Part shown: piece after piece, positions 9,606 through 19,756 of the stretch | How positions within the stretch are numbered: position 1 is the first letter of the stretch | Layout: each line of letters starts with the position of its first letter | Origin: a virus | Virus record (IMG/VR): IMGVR_UViG_3300047284_000471 | Location: 1-26,175 of that record | Direction: 5' to 3' (one strand) | Length of the DNA stretch: 26,175 bases | Program-made: the position numbers and the translations under genes | The notes under the pieces: generated by a model | Seen by the model: the letters and a program-made list of their open reading frames with translations, nothing else | Told to the model about the DNA's origin: nothing | Database searches by the model: none

Positions 9606-12600
9606 TTACAGGTTAAATTTCCATCCATACTGAATCATCGAAGTTGGTGAATTGAATGCTTCGATTGGTAATGATTTGCTTGGTCCAGGAAGAATAATTG
9701 GTTGAGATTGAGCTCCTGCTTTATTTACTGTCGGTGATGGTTTTACACCAGAAAATGCTGCTGCAGCTGCACTATTTATTTTTCTTTGAGCGGTATCGCT
9801 AGCAATATCCTTTTGGTTTCTAACGCTTTCAGTTGCTTGAGTTAATTGTGCTCCAGTTTGACCAGTGAAAGAAGCAGATACAATTTGATTAGTTTTTTGT
9901 GGTGTAAGTTTTTCTTTAGCGGCTTTTCCTGCTTCTACACCAGCACCTTGAATCTGTGCTTGCTGTGCTGCCTGGTCTCCACCTAATCCAGTAGTATTTA
10001 ATTTGACAATATCTTCAGCAATCTTACTAATTAATCCCTTAACTTGTTCCTCTTTACTTTGCTCCTCGGTTTTTTCTCCATCACCTTCTTTATTTGGCGA
10101 ATCTCCTGGTGCTTGTACACCAGAAGAACTTACTTGCACCTTACCTCTTACAAGATTTGCTTCTGAAATACGTCTCTTCTTGTTAACACCAGCATCATCT
10201 GTTGCACGAGCTTCAATTGCTTTTGCTAATGCTTCTTTATCTCCAGTTTTTGCTGCCTTAATAACACTTGAAGGAACGGAACCATAGTTATATGCAAGTG
10301 ATGTAAGTGCCGCATGAGCATTATCATCTAACTTACTCCATCCTTCTCCTACTGCTTTCTTAGCACCGTCATAGAATGCCTTTGTTCTCCTTGCAAGATC
10401 TCTTTCAGCATCATCTTTAGTTGTTTTATAACCTTTGGTTACTCCTACAACTTTACCATCTGACTTAGTTTGAGTATCACTACCATATCCCACTCTGTAA
10501 GCATTTACATCCCAATATGCTTCTTCTCTATAACCTTCATGACTCTTCAACCAATTAACTGCTTTAGCAAAACCACCATCAGCCTTCTTAATTAAAGTTG
10601 TTCCTCCAAACGAGAACGAAGGTCTATAAACACTAGTAAATGCTTTTGGTCCACCTATACTAAAGTTTGGTAGAGCATATCCACCAGACTTTGCCTCTCT
10701 CAATCTTCGATTTGTTAAATTTGGACTGCCTTTAGTTGCTGGAGTATTGAATGGAACAACAAACGCTTGTCCACCAGATGCCTTTTTAAAACCTACCCAT
10801 TCCTTACCATGACCCTCAAATGCAATTGATCTTCCACCATCCAAAGATACTGGATAACCAGACATCGGACCATCAATCCATCCACCATTAGATCTACCAT
10901 CTAAAACTTGTAATGGGCCTCCGCCAGACTTTTTAGGTGCTTGTGGTTGTGCTTTTGGAAGTTGTTTTGTCCCACCTTCAGATTTTTGCCAATCTAAAAG
11001 TAAGAAAGTATTTTTAGCATCTTTAGTATCTACTGGTATTCTATCTTGTTGACCCGTTAAGAACCCACCAAGAGTATCCATGGCACCAGCAACACCAGTT
11101 CTAAAGAATTTGAAACCTTCTTTAGTCTTATGAGCCTTGTAATTATTACCATCACTAGCAGTAAATTCTCTTTCATCACCAACTTTCATTCCATAATTTT
11201 TATCAATGGATTGATCCTTTGATATTTTGGCATCCTTAACTTCAGTGTCAAACTTCGCCTTTAAAGTTGTATAATCTTTTGGATGTATTCCATCTTGTCC
11301 TGCTTCATAACCACCCATCCAGGATGCACCATACTGTTTAGCAAGTTCTTTCAGTTTATTATTGAGAGGTGCAAACTTTGGATTATTGGTAGGAACTCCA
11401 ACTAATTGAACCTTTGCACCAGCTTCCTTCAAATACTTAAGTTGTTCTTCAACACTCTTTAGATCACTAGGTGAATTTAATATACCAGAAGATAATCTAA
11501 TTGTTTTATCTTTAAAACTGCCTTTGTCTTGACTCTTAATATAATCTAGTACACCCTTCGATGATCTACCAACCATCTGAGCATCAGTTTCAGTTCCTGC
11601 TCCTTGCTTACCCTCTAAACCTCTAGCAACACTGTCACCAATTGTAGTGTCCGCTTTTCCACCACCAGTTCCATCTGATTTTGTTGGACCAGGACCACCA
11701 GTTGAAGTTCCACTACTCTTTCCAACTTTATTACCGATAACTAAGGCAGCACCTAGTAAGTCAGTAAGCAAACCTAGGACTGTAGTATCACCCTTTTTAT
11801 TGTATTTCTTCTGATCTTTTGGTATGGAAACTGATTTACCTTTACCAAAAAGTTTATCGAGAATTGATGGTTTACCCTTCTTCTTTTCTTCCGATGTTGG
11901 TGTTTTCTGTTTACCCTGAGCAGATTTAACTACTGTTGGGGGAACACCAAATGAGTTAGCAATTGGAGCAATGATACTACCAACTAAAGGTGTAATTGCT
12001 GCTCCAGCTGGACCTAAAGAACCAACAGTTTGTGTGATATTTGCGATAATACCAGCACCAATACCCTTGAATGGTGCCATGAACAACTTGGATAGATTAG
12101 ATGCCTGCTTAGGATCAGACTTGGCACCATCCTGCTTATTACCACCGAACATTCCACCGAGAGAAGATAGTGGTTTTATTCCAGCATCCTTTCTTCTCTG
12201 ATCATTATCAGCAGGAATTGGCATGTTGACACTAAGAGGCATCCTGACTTCAGGACCTCTTTCACCAACAATTGCTGGAGTTGGTTTTGTAAATACACCA
12301 CCTTCAGCAGCAAATGGTATGTTTGATTCTGCCGAAGGTGTTTGTGCTTTGTCTGTGGCACCCTGTAAAGAACCACTCTGAGGTGCTGGAGGTGCCTTTG
12401 CTTCGCCTCCTCCAGACATCATGCTACCGAGAGCCATTCCCCCGCCAAGGAGGGCGAGACCACCCAATACTGCTCCAGCTCTACCTCTTGGTTTTGCTTT
12501 AATATCACCTGCCTTAGCACTTTGCTCGGCAGACCAAGCACCAAAACCACCCTTAGCATTCGCAGCTGCGGCACCTGTACCAACAGCATTTAATGCCTTT

Positions 12601-13352
12601 GCCTGTTTACCAATACTCTTTTTAGATTTTGATAAACTATTCCATAAAGTTTCTAGTACCCACTTAAATGCCTTAATAACCGTTAATGGTTTTTTAAGGA
12701 ATGCCATTCCCAATAGAAGAGAACCAAATCCAACTATAAAATTACCAAAACCTTTTATCCTATCCCATAAACTCTTATCACTATCAAACATATCAACAAG
12801 ACCTTCAATAGCCTTGAATAAGTTTTCGGTAATAAATTTATACAACCATTGGAATATTTTTATTACTCCATTAACTATCTTCGCTAGTTTCTCCCCATTT
12901 TTAGGATCAGATATCCATCTGAGTATTGCTTGACCCAAAAACGCTCGCATAAAAAACTGTCCCAGTTGTGCGAGTCCTTGGAAGAAATCACTAGCAACAG
13001 TTACAGCAAATCCAGCAAATTTACTTGCCCAATCAATAGAACCTTCTTTTTGTACTTGTTTTCCCTTGTTTGCCTTTTCTTTTTGAAAAGACTTTTTCAT
13101 ATCATCAAGTTCAGCACCTTTTAATTTCAATCCCTCAACTAGGGTCTTTAAAATTTGCTGATTGACGATAATCATACTATTAACAGTACCGCCAAGTCTG
13201 TTAATAGATGTCAAAAATGCTCCATAACTTGAAGCAACTGCCTGAGATCCTGACGATTTTTTTACACCAGTTGCCATCTTTGCAGATGGTAGACTTACCA
13301 TTTTGTAAAGTGCTGGTTTGGTAGAACCTGTGGGTGCTTTTACTGCGGCCAT
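9606..13352 (-). CDS. Second tape-measure-like protein with SGNH and GH24 lysozyme domains
   Basis: A 1248-aa protein. Residues 1-250 are helical and match the 1516-aa neighbour (LRWISDPKNGEKLAKIV at 144-160). Residues 349-374 hold the tape-measure motif AEGG-x-x-TKPT-x-A-x-x-GERGPEV-x-x-PLS. An SGNH/GDSL-like domain follows at about 570-700 (GDS at 572-574, DGIHP at 687-691). A GH24 lysozyme domain is at about 930-1070, with Glu939 in SHEG and Asp948 in YWDVN; the usual Thr is Val954 in RVGYG. A spacer module EEQV...DIVKLNT lies at 1101-1120. Low-complexity Gly/Pro/Lys linkers separate the domains. It starts 3 bases after the previous gene. Enzymatic roles in wall penetration are inferred from the motifs. 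Confidence 0.82.
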   Translation of the reverse strand: MAAVKAPTGSTKPALYKMVSLPSAKMATGVKKSSGSQAVASSYGAFLTSINRLGGTVNSMIIVNQQILKTLVEGLKLKGAELDDMKKSFQKEKANKGKQVQKEGSIDWASKFAGFAVTVASDFFQGLAQLGQFFMRAFLGQAILRWISDPKNGEKLAKIVNGVIKIFQWLYKFITENLFKAIEGLVDMFDSDKSLWDRIKGFGNFIVGFGSLLLGMAFLKKPLTVIKAFKWVLETLWNSLSKSKKSIGKQAKALNAVGTGAAAANAKGGFGAWSAEQSAKAGDIKAKPRGRAGAVLGGLALLGGGMALGSMMSGGGEAKAPPAPQSGSLQGATDKAQTPSAESNIPFAAEGGVFTKPTPAIVGERGPEVRMPLSVNMPIPADNDQRRKDAGIKPLSSLGGMFGGNKQDGAKSDPKQASNLSKLFMAPFKGIGAGIIANITQTVGSLGPAGAAITPLVGSIIAPIANSFGVPPTVVKSAQGKQKTPTSEEKKKGKPSILDKLFGKGKSVSIPKDQKKYNKKGDTTVLGLLTDLLGAALVIGNKVGKSSGTSTGGPGPTKSDGTGGGKADTTIGDSVARGLEGKQGAGTETDAQMVGRSSKGVLDYIKSQDKGSFKDKTIRLSSGILNSPSDLKSVEEQLKYLKEAGAKVQLVGVPTNNPKFAPLNNKLKELAKQYGASWMGGYEAGQDGIHPKDYTTLKAKFDTEVKDAKISKDQSIDKNYGMKVGDEREFTASDGNNYKAHKTKEGFKFFRTGVAGAMDTLGGFLTGQQDRIPVDTKDAKNTFLLLDWQKSEGGTKQLPKAQPQAPKKSGGGPLQVLDGRSNGGWIDGPMSGYPVSLDGGRSIAFEGHGKEWVGFKKASGGQAFVVPFNTPATKGSPNLTNRRLREAKSGGYALPNFSIGGPKAFTSVYRPSFSFGGTTLIKKADGGFAKAVNWLKSHEGYREEAYWDVNAYRVGYGSDTQTKSDGKVVGVTKGYKTTKDDAERDLARRTKAFYDGAKKAVGEGWSKLDDNAHAALTSLAYNYGSVPSSVIKAAKTGDKEALAKAIEARATDDAGVNKKRRISEANLVRGKVQVSSSGVQAPGDSPNKEGDGEKTEEQSKEEQVKGLISKIAEDIVKLNTTGLGGDQAAQQAQIQGAGVEAGKAAKEKLTPQKTNQIVSASFTGQTGAQLTQATESVRNQKDIASDTAQRKINSAAAAAFSGVKPSPTVNKAGAQSQPIILPGPSKSLPIEAFNSPTSMIQYGWKFNL
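9993..10073 (-). repeat. EEQ...KLNT spacer module, copy in the 1248-aa protein
   Basis: Residues 1094-1120 encode KTEEQSKEEQVKGLISKIAE followed by DIVKLNT. The same 27-residue module occurs twice in the 1516-aa neighbour. In each case it lies just after an enzyme domain. Confidence 0.75.
12895..12920 (-). repeat. 26-bp exact repeat shared by the two tape-measure-like genes (copy 1)
   Basis: Identical over 26 bases to 17404-17429. It encodes RWISDPKNG in both proteins. The flanks are diverged, so the identity reflects strong conservation or recent local gene conversion. Confidence 0.85.
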
Positions 13353-13355
13353 CTA

Positions 13356-16300
13356 TCAGAATCCATATGTGATTGGGGTCTTAGAGCGAACTACCGTTGG
13401 TGGCGGTGGTTGCGAAGACGACATTCCACCACTATTTATTGGTAGTGGCACTGGCACAACACTTCTAGAAGTTTCTCTTTGTTCTTGTGCAGCTGCTGTA
13501 CTTTGAGACATTTGATTTACAGATGCTCCCGTAGATGTTGCACTTGGAGGTGGTGCTAGTTGTGCTGCAGATTTTTGAGGAACACCCATAACAGCATTTG
13601 CAACATATGATTCCAATTCCTTTCCAGACAATCCAGCAGCCTTACCCTCTGCTCTTGCCTTCTGAGCTGCTGCAAATTGCTCCTTATTCAATGCTTTATC
13701 GGATCTTTGCCCAGGTGCAAGTGCTCCTGGGGGATTGCCCGCTGCAGGCGATCCTGGTGCCGCTGATGGTGCTGTTTTTACTCCCGCAGAATCAGTTGCT
13801 GCTGCTTTGGTTTCCTCTGGTCTCATTCCAGTATTCAACTGAATAATATCAGAAGAAATCTTACTAATTAAATCTGCAATCTGCTCCTCTCTTGACTTTT
13901 CTGGTGCTTCCTCTTCGGTATCAGATCCTCCAGTTCCACCAGTATCTCCGCCACCACCTCCAGATTCTTTCATAGAATCATCAAATTTTCCACCAAGTTG
14001 CGTTGCAACCCATGCTCTATGATCACTAGGAGAAGCATCTAAGTGAACGTGAACTGCTCCACCAGGTTTATTTCCCTGCTTACCAATTACTGTAGATGCC
14101 TGTACTGCTTTACCAACAGTTGCAGCTATGCTATCGAAGTGGTGGAACTGCATCCTCTTTTTACCATTATTACCAGCAATTACAACTGTATGCCCGCCAG
14201 CAGCGACCACCTTTCCATCAACACCAGCTACAACAGGTGCTCCACGATCTAAAGATTGATTGCCAAAATCCCTAACAACGACATAATCTCTAGGAACAAC
14301 AGGAGGTCCACCTAGTCTACTATTATTATAGGAATTAGAATCTGATTTATTGTGATGTAATCTATAATCTTTAAATGGAGTGGATGGATTCAATTTCAAA
14401 TCACTGACAGATCCATTAGTCGATAAAACTCCACCTTTAGAATAACCTTTGAGAGTTTTAATATTCTCATCGATCTTTTCATACTCATGCAATGGTGGCT
14501 CACCTAATCCCATACGAGAATATCTCGTCTTCATTACCTTACCACCTTTCTTTGCTTGTGGTAAAGCAGATTGTTCTGATAGTGTATTTAATTTAACAAT
14601 CGAACTTGCAATCTGCCCAATAAAATCTTGGATTTGTTCTTCTCGCGTTTTTTCTGGTGCTTCTTGTTCTCCAGTTTGTGATTCATTTCCACCACCTGTA
14701 TTAGAAGGTCCTACTCCAGATCCTCCATCTATAGAACCTTTTCCAGAAACATTCTCCCAGTGCCACGCTTCATGACCATCTGGATTATCCGTTTCATAAC
14801 CAGGAATCTGTCTAAATCCAAACTTAGAAGCATTCTTCCTTAACCACTTATAACCAGCGTTAGTGTAGTTCAAATCGACAGCAAGACCCAAACCATGATT
14901 AGAAGTTCCTGGATATGCAGCAGTTCCTGGTCCTAAAGAAGCATATAATTCCTTTTGTCTCTGATATGATCTATAAGAAGAATTGATATTAAAATTATGT
15001 CCAGAACTCTTTGCCGATGCAATCATTGCCCTAAATTGCTTAGCAATAGATTTATGTAATTTATGTCCACTACCAACACTTTCAAGTTCATCTTCTGGCA
15101 ACAAACCATTCTTGTATTTTCCACCTGCAGCAAACTTAGTCCAAGACTCTGCTGGTTGTCTAGCTGCCTTACTTTCAAGTGTAATAACATCTTCCTTTGG
15201 TGCTCTATTTTTATTCCATTCACGAACAGCACCACCACCAGCCATCTTAGCAGGTTCACCCTTTACCTTTTTAAGAGCTTCTTTAACCTCTGAAGGTTTA
15301 TGACTACTACTTTGACCCTTATACTTAAACTTACCATCGGGACCAGGTAGTGATGCAAACTCAAATGCCAATCCATGCATAAAAGCATCATCAGATTTCT
15401 TACCTTGCAACCAAGATTTGCCACCACGATTCTGTTCTATATTAACTTTAGATACAATCAAATCCTGATTTTCTTTACTGTAAAGATCTTTATTAGGATC
15501 TAACCCAGCTGCCTTTGCCCTACTTACAAGATATTGTGGAAGTTGCTGATATTTTCCTACTGCTCCAGTTGCTTTCTTTGCAACTTCAGCAATAGTCATT
15601 TTTGTAGCACCTTTTAATGTAGTGCTAGGATACATTGCTTCATAATTACCACCAGACTCTTTAGCAGAAATCAAGTCTAATAATGGGCCCCACTCACCAG
15701 TAGCAGATCCTCCAGAAGAACCAGACGATCCATCAGCCGCACCAGAAGGTCCACCAGAAGATCCACCAGATTTACCTTTATCAGTAAATTTCATGTTGGA
15801 GACATCTATAAATGCCTTCGCAACATTTGCAAGAGCACCCCTAAGAGTGGTCATCTGAGCATTTCCACTTGTTGCTGGTGGTCTATCGCCAATCAGCTGG
15901 TTCATTAACGCTTCAGGATCATCTTCTTTACTGGACTTTAATCCCTTAACAACACTCTTAGATAATGTTTCTCCAGTTTGAGCAGGAGGAACAGAACCAA
16001 CTCCGAGTTGCATCTTTGCTTGTTGGAGATCTGCACCAATAACTTGTCTAGCAACTTCTCCTGCGGACCCCATTGCCTTTAGAGATCCTTCTAAAGCAGA
16101 AGCTATGGTAGTAGCAATAAAAGAAGAATCTCCACCTGCTCCCTGCATCTTAGATAAAGGAACTAGAACTTCTGGTCCTCTTTCTCCAAGAACTGCTTGA
16201 GTTGGTTTAGTAATGATACCACCTTCCGCAAGCATTGGAACCTTTGGAAGCATACTTTGTACTCCCTTAATTGGTCCTAGTATGGCATTTAAGGAGTTTT

Positions 16301-17906
16301 GGAATACCTCATTTTCCTTCTTAACAACATCTGGAAAGAAATCTCTACCAAACAAGTAAGCATCTAATGCTAAAGAAAGTGCTGGACCAGGAGCAAAACC
16401 AAATAGACCAGAGAGATCAAGAATAGCAGCAAGTGATTCCAGAACTGCACCCGATTTATCACCTTGTTTTAATCTATCATAAGCAAAGTAGAGATTTACA
16501 AGACCGCCAATAACAGGAATCGCTTTTCCACCTAGTTTTTTAAGTGCAGCAGGTCCACCTTCCTTGGCAACCTTTTTCATTATCTTATCATAACCAGGAA
16601 CTTTCTTGATCAAGTCAGTTGCTTTTTGACCAAGTTTCTTAGCAGTGGATATGATACCTTTCTTTTCTAAAAGATCATAAGCACCTTTCGCTAAAGGTTC
16701 CAGTCTCTTTTTAACTTGATCTTTTAGAAACTCGCCAGATTTTGCTAGTTTTTCTCTAGCACCTTTAGAGATGCTATTTCCAAATTTCTTAACGTTCTCC
16801 CATCCAGAAAGTAAACCCTTCTTAGTTCCTTCAGCAAAAGAAGATACCCCCTTTTGCATACCAGATAACTTATCCCCAAAGAATCCCTGCATCTTCTGGA
16901 GGGCATTCTGTGGTTTTGCTGGAATAGGTGGTAGTTTAGTAAATTTACCTCTGACTGCCTTCAGAGCATCTACTGGTTTTTTGCCTCTCTTTATAAGGTC
17001 ATCATAATACTTTGCTGCTTCATCGCCATAGTTCTCTGCAACTTTTTGTGCAGGTTTACTTAAGGCGGGTTTATTTGGAGTGGGGGCACCACCGCCAGAA
17101 GGAGGAAGTGATTCTGGTGTTGGTTGAGGTTTTCTATCGAATAAACCTCCCAATAATCCCAATACATCTCCAATCAGAGAGAATGGATTGAGTAAATAAC
17201 TTGCTGCTTTCAATGCAGCAATACCTAAAATTATTTGTCCTAGACCACCTAAAACCTCAGCGAATCTTGCGAATCCAGTTTTAGAACCATCACCAAATAG
17301 ATTGCTAACTCCACTCATGAACTGGTCTATAGACCAGGCAACAACTCCATATATAAACTTGAAAAACTTGGTGGCACCTTCTACTATCTTACCAAGTCTT
17401 TCACCATTTTTAGGATCAGATATCCATCTAAGAACACCTTGAACTAGTATCGTTCTTACAGCAAATTCAATAATACCCTTGAATGGGCCGAGTAATTTTT
17501 CAATCCAGGAAAGTTCTTTCTTCCCTTCTTCTTTTATTTCTTCCTGGTCAACAGCACCTTTACCTATCGATTCAGTATTTTCTTCTGACTGCTGATCCTT
17601 TAAATATTGTTCCTTTCTTCTTAAGAATGCTTTCTTAAGATTTGCAAGTGATGTCTCTGATGTAAGAACATCTCTAATTTGTCTTTGCGTATCTCCTAAA
17701 GAATAGATCGAAGCACCAAGTCTATTCAATCCCAAGAGAGTCTTTTTAGAAGACATGGTAGATGATGCTGCAGATTTTTCTTCTGCAGCATCATTTTTCT
17801 CGCTAGCAACAGATGCCTTAATAGCAGATGCCATCGCAAATCTAGGTACTTTAATTAGATTTGGATTGACAAACTTGTAGGGTTTTATCTTATTGCTGTA
17901 TAACAT
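13356..17906 (-). CDS. Tape-measure protein with three cell-wall-directed domains
   Basis: A 1516-aa protein placed directly after the predicted gp26 chaperone frameshift ORF, with the ATG overlapping its stop (TAATG). This is the tape-measure position. Residues 1-590 are mostly helical, with a charged coiled-coil-like start, LRWISDPKNGERLGKIV at 159-175 and the tape-measure motif at 560-585. After a Ser/Gly linker there is a lytic transglycosylase-like domain (about 740-850; Glu750 in AKESGG, then GAVGKYQQ). A VanY D,D-carboxypeptidase domain follows at about 935-1053 (SNHGLGLAVD with His1004 and Asp1011, EAWHW with Glu1046 and His1049). An M23/LytM-like domain lies at about 1205-1292 (HVHLD at 1286-1290). 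EEQI...LNT modules follow at 1082-1108 and 1333-1359. The C-terminus is Pro/Gln/Ser-rich. Confidence 0.85.
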   Translation of the reverse strand: MLYSNKIKPYKFVNPNLIKVPRFAMASAIKASVASEKNDAAEEKSAASSTMSSKKTLLGLNRLGASIYSLGDTQRQIRDVLTSETSLANLKKAFLRRKEQYLKDQQSEENTESIGKGAVDQEEIKEEGKKELSWIEKLLGPFKGIIEFAVRTILVQGVLRWISDPKNGERLGKIVEGATKFFKFIYGVVAWSIDQFMSGVSNLFGDGSKTGFARFAEVLGGLGQIILGIAALKAASYLLNPFSLIGDVLGLLGGLFDRKPQPTPESLPPSGGGAPTPNKPALSKPAQKVAENYGDEAAKYYDDLIKRGKKPVDALKAVRGKFTKLPPIPAKPQNALQKMQGFFGDKLSGMQKGVSSFAEGTKKGLLSGWENVKKFGNSISKGAREKLAKSGEFLKDQVKKRLEPLAKGAYDLLEKKGIISTAKKLGQKATDLIKKVPGYDKIMKKVAKEGGPAALKKLGGKAIPVIGGLVNLYFAYDRLKQGDKSGAVLESLAAILDLSGLFGFAPGPALSLALDAYLFGRDFFPDVVKKENEVFQNSLNAILGPIKGVQSMLPKVPMLAEGGIITKPTQAVLGERGPEVLVPLSKMQGAGGDSSFIATTIASALEGSLKAMGSAGEVARQVIGADLQQAKMQLGVGSVPPAQTGETLSKSVVKGLKSSKEDDPEALMNQLIGDRPPATSGNAQMTTLRGALANVAKAFIDVSNMKFTDKGKSGGSSGGPSGAADGSSGSSGGSATGEWGPLLDLISAKESGGNYEAMYPSTTLKGATKMTIAEVAKKATGAVGKYQQLPQYLVSRAKAAGLDPNKDLYSKENQDLIVSKVNIEQNRGGKSWLQGKKSDDAFMHGLAFEFASLPGPDGKFKYKGQSSSHKPSEVKEALKKVKGEPAKMAGGGAVREWNKNRAPKEDVITLESKAARQPAESWTKFAAGGKYKNGLLPEDELESVGSGHKLHKSIAKQFRAMIASAKSSGHNFNINSSYRSYQRQKELYASLGPGTAAYPGTSNHGLGLAVDLNYTNAGYKWLRKNASKFGFRQIPGYETDNPDGHEAWHWENVSGKGSIDGGSGVGPSNTGGGNESQTGEQEAPEKTREEQIQDFIGQIASSIVKLNTLSEQSALPQAKKGGKVMKTRYSRMGLGEPPLHEYEKIDENIKTLKGYSKGGVLSTNGSVSDLKLNPSTPFKDYRLHHNKSDSNSYNNSRLGGPPVVPRDYVVVRDFGNQSLDRGAPVVAGVDGKVVAAGGHTVVIAGNNGKKRMQFHHFDSIAATVGKAVQASTVIGKQGNKPGGAVHVHLDASPSDHRAWVATQLGGKFDDSMKESGGGGGDTGGTGGSDTEEEAPEKSREEQIADLISKISSDIIQLNTGMRPEETKAAATDSAGVKTAPSAAPGSPAAGNPPGALAPGQRSDKALNKEQFAAAQKARAEGKAAGLSGKELESYVANAVMGVPQKSAAQLAPPPSATSTGASVNQMSQSTAAAQEQRETSRSVVPVPLPINSGGMSSSQPPPPTVVRSKTPITYGF
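13830..13910 (-). repeat. EEQ...QLNT spacer module, second copy in the tape-measure protein
   Basis: Residues 1333-1359: EAPEKSREEQIADLISKI then SSDIIQLNT, directly after the M23-like domain and a Gly-rich linker. Confidence 0.8.
14583..14663 (-). repeat. EEQ...KLNT spacer module, first copy in the tape-measure protein
   Basis: Residues 1082-1108: EAPEKTREEQIQDFIGQI then ASSIVKLNT, directly after the VanY domain. It shares EAPEK-x-REEQI with the second copy. Confidence 0.8.
17404..17429 (-). repeat. 26-bp exact repeat shared by the two tape-measure-like genes (copy 2)
   Basis: Identical to 12895-12920; encodes RWISDPKNG in the 1516-aa protein. Confidence 0.85.
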
Positions 17907-18115
17907 TAGAGACTACTTCTGCCTTGTGCTTGCTGTTGTTGTTTCTTATATCGTTCTTCTTCCTTCTTCAAATGACCGATCAACATATCAACATACACTT
18001 CCTTTTCCCAAGGAACTAAATTGTCAAGATCAGACAAAGACCACTTATGATGATGCATCAAAGCAAAATTAGTCTCAAGATGATTCGCTAATGTAGTATG
18101 AAGAAGGGCTACTCG
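17906..18115 (-). CDS. -1 frameshift extension of gp26 (tape-measure chaperone, gpG-T-like)
   Basis: A 69-codon frame in -1 relative to gp26, open from just upstream of the gp26 stop to TAA at 17906-17908. It reads RVALLHTTLANHLETNF..., contains KWSLSDLDNLVPWEKEVYV, and ends in a charged/Gln-rich helix (EEERYKKQQQQAQGRSSL). Between an in-frame stop at 18140-18142 and TTG 18061/ATG 18058 there is no ATG, GTG or TTG, and these late starts lack a good ribosome site. Slippage on TTTTTTC at 18115-18121 would join it to gp26, giving a 305-aa fusion. Position directly before the tape-measure gene, with TAATG overlap, matches the gpG/gpGT chaperone pairs of many tailed phages. In T4, gene 51 occupies this slot. 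Frameshifting itself is predicted, not shown. Confidence 0.75.
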   Translation of the reverse strand, partial: RVALLHTTLANHLETNFALMHHHKWSLSDLDNLVPWEKEVYVDMLIGHLKKEEERYKKQQQQAQGRSSL

Positions 18116-18822
18116 AAAAAAGCGCCAAGTCCCTCTAACTTAACAGTGCTCTTTACACCAGTTTCAGGATTCTCAACTTCAATATCATATTCAAGTTTTG
18201 GCATATTGGCAAAAAATTCTTGAATCTTCAAGAACTGATCGCTTTTCATATTTTCTAGAAATTCATTCAGTTCCTTTTTCGTATAATTTTTAGTGTCATA
18301 TACTTCCTCACCATCATAAATCTGGTCAATACATGTTGTAGCAAGTTCAAATACATTATCAACAGTAATGTCATTGCCAGTGAAATTCAATTTCACAAAA
18401 GTATCAATCGAAGGATACTTCATAATTACACCAACAGTATCAGATAGTTCAATTTTTGTTGTTGCCTTTTCTGGCCATGTAATTTCTACTTCATTAAGAG
18501 GAACCTCAACCATAACTTGAGTTTCATTATCATCTGGACATGTAACTAAAATTTTAGAGACTTCTCCAACAGACTTCGAACGAATTCTCAAGAACAAATA
18601 TTCAATATCAAATGTTGCCAACTCATCAACTTTACCTTTCAAATTAGTGCAGTTTTTAATAATTGTTTTTACTGCATTGATCATTTCTTTTTCACCACCC
18701 ATCTCCATGGCAACAAGAAGAAGTTTTTCTTCTTTAACTAAAAATGGTCTATATTTAATGGTTTCTTTAGTAGATGGCAACTCCAGTTCATATTCAGGAA
18801 CCGCTAATTTAGGTAATGGCAT
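18109..18822 (-). CDS. 26: gp26-like baseplate hub / tape-measure chaperone
   Basis: A 237-aa T4 gp26-family protein starting MPLPKLAVPEYELELPSTK. Its pattern, with an N-terminal strand-rich region, KYRPFLVKEEKLLLVAMEMG and a central (F/Y)LFLRIRSKSVGE, is that of the T4 gp26 family. It has an acidic C-terminal half (ELNEFLENMKSDQFLKIQEF) and ends LEGLGAFFE. ATG 18822 has a GGAG ribosome site. It lies between gp54 and the tape-measure gene. The last codons contain the slippery site T-TTT-TTC; a -1 shift adds 69 residues. gp26 is needed for hub assembly in T4; its chaperone nature is inferred from gene order and the frameshift signal. Confidence 0.85.
   Translation of the reverse strand: MPLPKLAVPEYELELPSTKETIKYRPFLVKEEKLLLVAMEMGGEKEMINAVKTIIKNCTNLKGKVDELATFDIEYLFLRIRSKSVGEVSKILVTCPDDNETQVMVEVPLNEVEITWPEKATTKIELSDTVGVIMKYPSIDTFVKLNFTGNDITVDNVFELATTCIDQIYDGEEVYDTKNYTKKELNEFLENMKSDQFLKIQEFFANMPKLEYDIEVENPETGVKSTVKLEGLGAFFE
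18115..18135 (-). promoter_or_regulatory. Predicted -1 frameshift site with upstream Shine-Dalgarno-like element
   Basis: In the gp26 reading frame the sequence is GC-T-TTT-TTC-GAG-TAG: a perfect X-XXY-YYZ heptamer two codons before the stop. GAGGG lies 9 bases upstream, a spacing like the stimulatory Shine-Dalgarno of dnaX. I could not define a downstream pseudoknot by eye. Confidence 0.7.
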
Positions 18823-18865: not shown

Positions 18866-19756
18866 TTAAATTACAGTATATCCAGAAGCTGCTGCAAGAA
18901 CAGTAGGTGTAGCACCACCAAATCCTAATGGGGCGGCAGTCGCTGCAGAAATACCAGAAGAAGCAGATGATGATCCAGAACTTCCTAAAGTTACAGGAAT
19001 ATTAATATCTGCATCATTGGGTCTTGGTGGTGTGTAGAATCTGTATCTTTCATAATAAAAAGAAACCTCCATTTGCACTAAAGATGCTGGACCAGCATTA
19101 AGATTGATATTACTAATATTAAAAGGAAATGCATTTTTGAGTACCCAAACTCCAGAGCATCTATTAAACTTAATTTGATTGGCTAAAAATGCATCTCTTC
19201 CCGCTTTTCTTACAGTAGGAGATAAAACTGACGAATAAGATGACCAATCTACTGGAGTTGGTGTCATACCGCCCCTCTCATACTTAAAAATATCTAAATA
19301 TGGACAAACATATTGATCATAATATGCCACTTTTTGTGTAGCATCATTTGATGTATAATTCATCCATCTTTCGAAAAACATTCGAGTAAACAATGTTCTC
19401 GGAAGAATGAAAGAAATGCTAATTTCACTGAAGCTTGTTCCAGTGACATATCTGTACATACTTCCAACAGTTTTTGCATCGCCAGTAGTCAATTGTCTGC
19501 TTGGAATAGTTACATCAGTGGCATAATAAGTGAGGAGCCTTGCATTATCTACACCAGGTCCAGTCGTAATACCATTATTAAAAGCATCTATCCCATCTTG
19601 GTATCTGGGTGCTCCAGATGCATCATAAAAGACGCCAGGCGGTTCTCTAAACCTAACCCAATATAAGTTATTAGCCGAAGGCGTCGCCCTCGATACCATG
19701 GATCGAAATCCTTGAAAACTATTTGGGCCCGATAATGGGGTAAAAGATGCTGGCAT
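18866..19756 (-). CDS. 54: Baseplate tail-tube initiator gp54
   Basis: A 296-aa protein starting MPASFTPLSGPNSFQGF at ATG 19756 with a GGGAG ribosome site. It contains a tube-protein-like core: SANNLYWVRFREPPGVF, LTYYATDVTIPSRQL, FSEISISFILPRTLFTRMFFERWMNY, YVCPYLDIFKYERGG, and a late strand VLKNAFPFNISNINLNAGPASLVQMEVSF. This is the shared gp19/gp54 tail-tube fold, and the length (T4 gp54 is 320 aa, gp19 is 163 aa) favours gp54. Its place next to gp48, gp26 and the tape-measure gene agrees. gp54 forms the first ring on which tube and sheath polymerise. The C-terminus is a Ser/Ala-rich tail. Confidence 0.8.
   Translation of the reverse strand: MPASFTPLSGPNSFQGFRSMVSRATPSANNLYWVRFREPPGVFYDASGAPRYQDGIDAFNNGITTGPGVDNARLLTYYATDVTIPSRQLTTGDAKTVGSMYRYVTGTSFSEISISFILPRTLFTRMFFERWMNYTSNDATQKVAYYDQYVCPYLDIFKYERGGMTPTPVDWSSYSSVLSPTVRKAGRDAFLANQIKFNRCSGVWVLKNAFPFNISNINLNAGPASLVQMEVSFYYERYRFYTPPRPNDADINIPVTLGSSGSSSASSGISAATAAPLGFGGATPTVLAAASGYTVI

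Follow-up and report, generated by a model that had tools for sequence, protein, structure and literature searches.

A probable programmed -1 ribosomal frameshift at the end of gp26 in a T4-like cyanophage and its conservation among relatives

Background

Phage lambda makes a short and a long tail assembly chaperone, gpG and gpGT, from one gene by -1 slippage near the 3' end of that gene. Its slippery sequence is G_GGA_AAG, the T part has no start of its own, and the genes follow the order V-G-T-H (tube, G, T, tape measure). For T4-like phages, Vladimirov, Gautam and Davidson (Virology 566:9-15) reportedly described gp26 (TAC-N) and gp51 (TAC-NC) as the tail assembly chaperones in 2022, and their abstract is said to report conservation of frameshifting across several T4-like groups and the use of genes 26 and 51 by T4. 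The concept of a frameshift in T4-like phages is therefore not new, given that these authors proposed it in that year.

Two papers that cite Vladimirov et al. state that a poly-T slippery signal is present in the TAC-N genes of T4-like phages (PMC12846349) and that, in some of these phages, a dedicated gene for the long fusion takes its place (PMC10274946). A 2016 recoding review describes the frameshift as a widely conserved feature of long-tailed phages "except T4" (PMC5009743). Among the closest described cases are Pakpunavirus (phage Adele) and Andersonviridae, where, according to PMC12846349, a poly-T -1 site ends TAC-N and is followed by a long -1 frame that is open in all relatives. Our literature search found no cyanophage-specific report of this frameshift.

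Here we describe a corresponding site in the window, by which we mean the whole 26,175-base virus record analysed, in which gp26, its -1 extension, the tail tube gene and the large downstream gene are read on the minus strand. Like lambda and the Pakpunavirus and Andersonviridae phages, it appears to encode a short and a long chaperone from one gene with a -1 site at its 3' end. Its heptamer, T_TTT_TTC, differs from the GTTTTT motif given for the latter groups (PMC12846349). It also differs from the lambda heptamer, and the likeness to lambda described here is one of scheme and gene order.

Results

The first ORF of the pair, gp26 (18109..18822, 237 aa), is the predicted short form (TAC-N) and belongs to the T4 gp26 family (Pfam T4_baseplate PF12322, E 7e-72; phrog_150, E 2e-80). 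Its 3' end reads GGC GCT TTT TTC GAG TAG, which bears out the exact X-XXY-YYZ heptamer that a preliminary description had claimed: T_TTT_TTC occupies 18121-18115, one codon before the zero-frame stop TAG (18109..18111). The GAGGG reported in the same description, a Shine-Dalgarno-like putative stimulator, lies at 18135-18131, 9 nt 5' of the heptamer. The -1 frame is bounded by TAA 18142-18140 and TAA 17908-17906; as had been proposed, it is open for the 69 codons that would be read after slippage (18115-17909), and its terminal TAA overlaps the ATG (17906-17904) of the next gene. This extension (17906..18115 with its stop) is a gp51-like C-terminal domain (TAC-C), matching phrog_634 "baseplate hub assembly catalyst" (gp51) from residue 2 on (E 7e-27). 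The frameshift fusion (17906..18822), the presumed long form (TAC-NC), would comprise 305 aa, 236 from gp26 and 69 from the extension.

No ATG, GTG, or TTG was found in the -1 frame from the stop at 18142-18140 to TTG 18061, a span that takes in the first 18 codons of the extension, in agreement with the preliminary description; by reading, ATT, ATC, ATA, and CTG are also absent 5' of TTG 18061. The first possible starts are this TTG and ATG 18058 (together 18056..18061), and no ribosome-binding site was seen for them. Because conserved residues sit upstream of both, we judge from the sequence that neither is the true start.

Upstream of gp26 lies a tail tube gene (18866..19756; phrog_45 tail tube, E 2e-42), and downstream lies a large gene (13356..17906, 1516 aa) that is the probable tape-measure protein. 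The order in the window is thus tail tube, gp26, -1 ORF, and large tape-measure-like protein, which is the order seen in lambda. The preliminary description called the downstream gene the tape measure, and position and size agree with this, but its only tape-measure match is phrog_34082 (tail length tape measure) at E 4e-4, so the identification is weak. The same protein also matches phrog_790 "endolysin" and has a peptidase-like segment near residues 950-1030; its N-terminal part and that of the 1248-aa protein at 9606-13352 match overlapping "endolysin" PHROG families. Separately, four distant relatives (L084, L149, L153, and L155) carry an extra small ORF of 82-141 aa between gp51 and the large downstream gene.

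An AlphaFold model of gp26 was confident (pLDDT 87), and its predicted fold is suggestive of the HK97 tail assembly chaperone. With residues 1-85, the top VIA-align match was that chaperone (2ob9, Z 7.7, rmsd 4.1 over 83 residues), followed by 3fgx (Z 7.6) and others at 5.5 and below, the top Z being within the chance range. A Foldseek search of the model against the PDB returned nothing significant (HK97 chaperone E 2.4), so we treat the resemblance as a hint only, and the gp26 profile gave no useful match among PDB sequences.

To place the window among its relatives, 153 loci were analysed, 80 of them collected with gp26, 42 with the -1 ORF alone, and the others from distant phages; removal of duplicates left 134 distinct loci, and L093, for which a later stop had been used, was excluded from the counts. 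Since the query for the 42 loci was the -1 ORF protein by itself, they were not selected for gp26 or for the heptamer. When viral contigs were scanned using the gp26 proteins of Caulobacter, Stenotrophomonas, and Vibrio phages, few loci were recovered, and no relative was found in the bacterial genomes scanned with the -1 ORF.

T_TTT_TTN was in frame at 132 of the 134 distinct loci, 0 to 2 codons 5' of the gp26 stop, in the form TTTTTTC at 127 loci and TTTTTTT at four. It is kept in phages of Caulobacter, Stenotrophomonas, Vibrio, Rhizobium, Sinorhizobium, Pseudomonas, and Methylophilales. This site is far beyond chance. Within the window's genes, in-frame XXXYYYN heptamers number 46 across about 7,546 codons, and the single T_TTT_TTC and the single case one codon from a stop among them are both the gp26 site; elsewhere in gp26 of 131 relatives, T_TTT_TTC is in frame a single time across 29,691 codons, against 127/134 at the site. 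The codon preceding TTT is AGT, GCT, TCT, GAT, or AAT, so that the residue varies among S, A, D, and N while the third base T is constant (66/66 clusters at 75% identity). Synonymous constraint at the three heptamer codons (z 3.7, 4.9, and 4.2, in codon order) places them second to fourth among 232 gp26 columns. The top column, gp26 residue 3, was set aside, as it is represented by 81 sequences near the trimmed start and may be an edge effect. Because the sequences share ancestry, all of these conservation figures describe constraint, not independent probabilities.

The two loci without the heptamer are the Ackermannviridae phages L087 and L088, which read GAG/GAA ATT TTC ATT TAA. A gp51-related -1 ORF still follows gp26 in both, and in L088 an ATG overlaps the gp26 stop (TAATG). 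Perhaps these phages use re-initiation instead of frameshifting. Loss of the heptamer with the downstream ORF kept, which the preliminary description had named as evidence against its proposal, was seen only in these two phages of a different lineage, and conservation of the heptamer and the -1 ORF, which it had suggested checking, was otherwise recovered.

The -1 frame itself carries a coding signal. It is free of stops for 54 codons in 131/131 testable loci, while the other two frames are always interrupted. L026 seemed to have a -1 stop, but we did not accept this as a frame break, as the contig ends 43 nt past gp26. For the 28 loci, window included, that lack ATG, GTG, and TTG in the first 18 codons, pN/pS of this start-less stretch was 0.36 when read in the -1 frame, against 1.02 for the zero frame and 1.87 for the +1 frame, so that only the -1 frame shows purifying selection there. 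The -1 ORF overlaps gp26, is without its own start, and is conserved as a protein. In six relatives the first ATG comes at codon 33 or beyond, well within the conserved domain.

Comparison with T4 changes two points of the preliminary description. T4 gene 51 is not placed after gene 26 as stated there, since it adjoins gene 26 on the opposite strand. Nor is T4 gp51 the counterpart of the -1 ORF alone: it matches both PF12322 (1-201) and phrog_634 (147-246), and a profile built from the frameshift fusions can be aligned to it through the FF junction, whereas the alignment of T4 gp26 is confined to the short part. Being collinear with the fusion across the junction, T4 gp51 is the long form encoded as a separate gene, and T4 gp26 is without the heptamer (TTC TTT). 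T4 would then be of a two-gene type, with the long form in its own gene, and the window of a frameshift type with the same gp26/gp51 pair.

Candidate stimulators were evaluated on both sides of the heptamer. Upstream, the Glu codon of GAGGG is GAG in 45/58 cluster representatives, compared with 32% over the whole of gp26 (p 2e-12 with each cluster counted as independent), and the next codon is GGA or GGG in 37/65 against 40% usage (p 0.004), among 66 cluster representatives. Downstream, folding relative to synonymous resampling peaked precisely over the 48 nt that follow the heptamer (mean z -1.86; neighbouring windows -0.7 to 0.0). At 31/132 loci, an 11-bp stem, of which 9 to 11 pairs form, begins 5 nt past the heptamer, and its 5' arm contains an ATG that is likely to be called as the gp51 start. 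Stem pairs covary, with cells changed on both sides numbering 10 against 2.4 in shuffles and a covariation score of 0.182 against 0.105 (equalled in 0/500 shuffles), but the double changes fall in only two pairs, and the sequences, which are related, had been selected for pairing. In one pair, a silent Ala change (GCT, GCG, GCA) on one side of the loop is tied to a residue replacement (GAG, GCG, GTG) on the other.

The loci with this stem-loop, within the first 40 nt past the heptamer, include L015, L021, L025, L031, L034, L053, L070, L151, and L152. A different short hairpin was observed 10 nt past the heptamer in a second group of relatives (L013, L043, L049, L062, and L069), with the variants GGTCC ACAT GGACC, GATCC ATAT GGATC, and GGTTC ATAT GAACC, which seem to covary. 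A downstream stem-loop was sought in the window itself and not found (folding z +1.0). The 11-bp stem thus cannot be claimed for the window, and stimulation there would come from the upstream GAGGG alone.

Discussion

The comparisons above support the lambda-type scheme that the preliminary description proposed: a start-less -1 frame evolves as a protein, within the order tube, gp26, -1 ORF, and tape-measure-like protein. This reading stands because the frame, the heptamer, its spacing, and the missing starts are conserved, together with the selection in the -1 frame, the gene order, and the homology to T4 gp51 across the junction. On the sequence evidence, we consider it very probable that a programmed -1 frameshift at T_TTT_TTC, close to the 3' end of gp26, yields a long tail chaperone, gp26-gp51.

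Three other explanations of the two frames were weighed. That gp51 is a separate small protein, re-initiated inside the -1 frame after gp26 termination (in the window at TTG 18061 or ATG 18058), seems to us improbable. In its favour, public records do place the beginning of gp51 at such codons. The -1 frame of many relatives also has an ATG only a few codons after gp26 terminates, so that separate initiation could occur in them, and the Ackermannviridae phage L088 offers TAATG with no heptamer. Yet the starts in the isolate records examined are inconsistent, lying 20, 29, or 89 nt past gp26 where the gene is called at all (the joined gene is annotated in none), the residues 5' of any start are conserved as protein, the third bases of the heptamer are fixed, and T4 gp51 is itself a long fusion. 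A separate gene fails to explain the data, since the start-less stretch is coding and the ATG comes so late in six relatives.

Even less probable is transcriptional slippage, in which bases would be added to or dropped from the mRNA on the six-T run, giving the fusion without ribosomal slippage. Such a run exists and reaches TTTTTTT in four loci, but it ends at six T with a fixed C in 127/134, which suits X_XXY_YYZ decoding, and polymerase slippage usually requires longer runs; the GAG GGR bias at a Shine-Dalgarno-like distance and the downstream structure signal likewise suit ribosomal slippage. An assembly or sequencing indel that split one gene into two frames has the frame break itself in its favour and nothing more. 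With an identical frame relation in 132 distinct metagenomic and isolate sequences, it is refuted by the relatives, and we give it next to no credence.

In the ribosomal frameshift that we infer, from the slippage itself and its efficiency to the action of the stimulators and the chaperone role, the majority of ribosomes would terminate at TAG and release gp26. A minority would move back by one base while the two phenylalanine tRNAs re-pair (TTT TTC to TTT TTT), bypass TAG, and add 69 residues to give the 305-aa gp26-gp51. The purine-rich GAGGG probably assists through pairing with 16S rRNA. Short and long forms would both assist tail assembly as chaperones of the neighbouring tape-measure-like protein, and the tail domain of the long form probably recruits tail-tube subunits, as in lambda gpGT.

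For the relatives with the 11-bp stem, we see an even chance that the stem both stimulates the frameshift and hides the gp51 ATG, so that gp51 would be made almost only as the fusion, with the window's clade and others using GAGGG instead. If this is true, lineages have swapped stimulators while retaining one heptamer. The breadth of the evidence and the covarying stem-loop in one group of relatives may be new.

Because the cyanophage records examined either call a separate gp51 or omit it, a likely real product is missing from annotation. The gp51 stretch is unannotated or present only as a 37-aa fragment in L157 (ACG-2014d), L152 (S-PRM1), L087 (Klebsiella 0507-KN2-1), and L159 (S-H38). The cyanophage data join gp26 and gp51 as the predicted short and long forms of one chaperone, and the gp26 site, being compact and conserved, would lend itself to measurements of frameshifting in cyanobacterial hosts.
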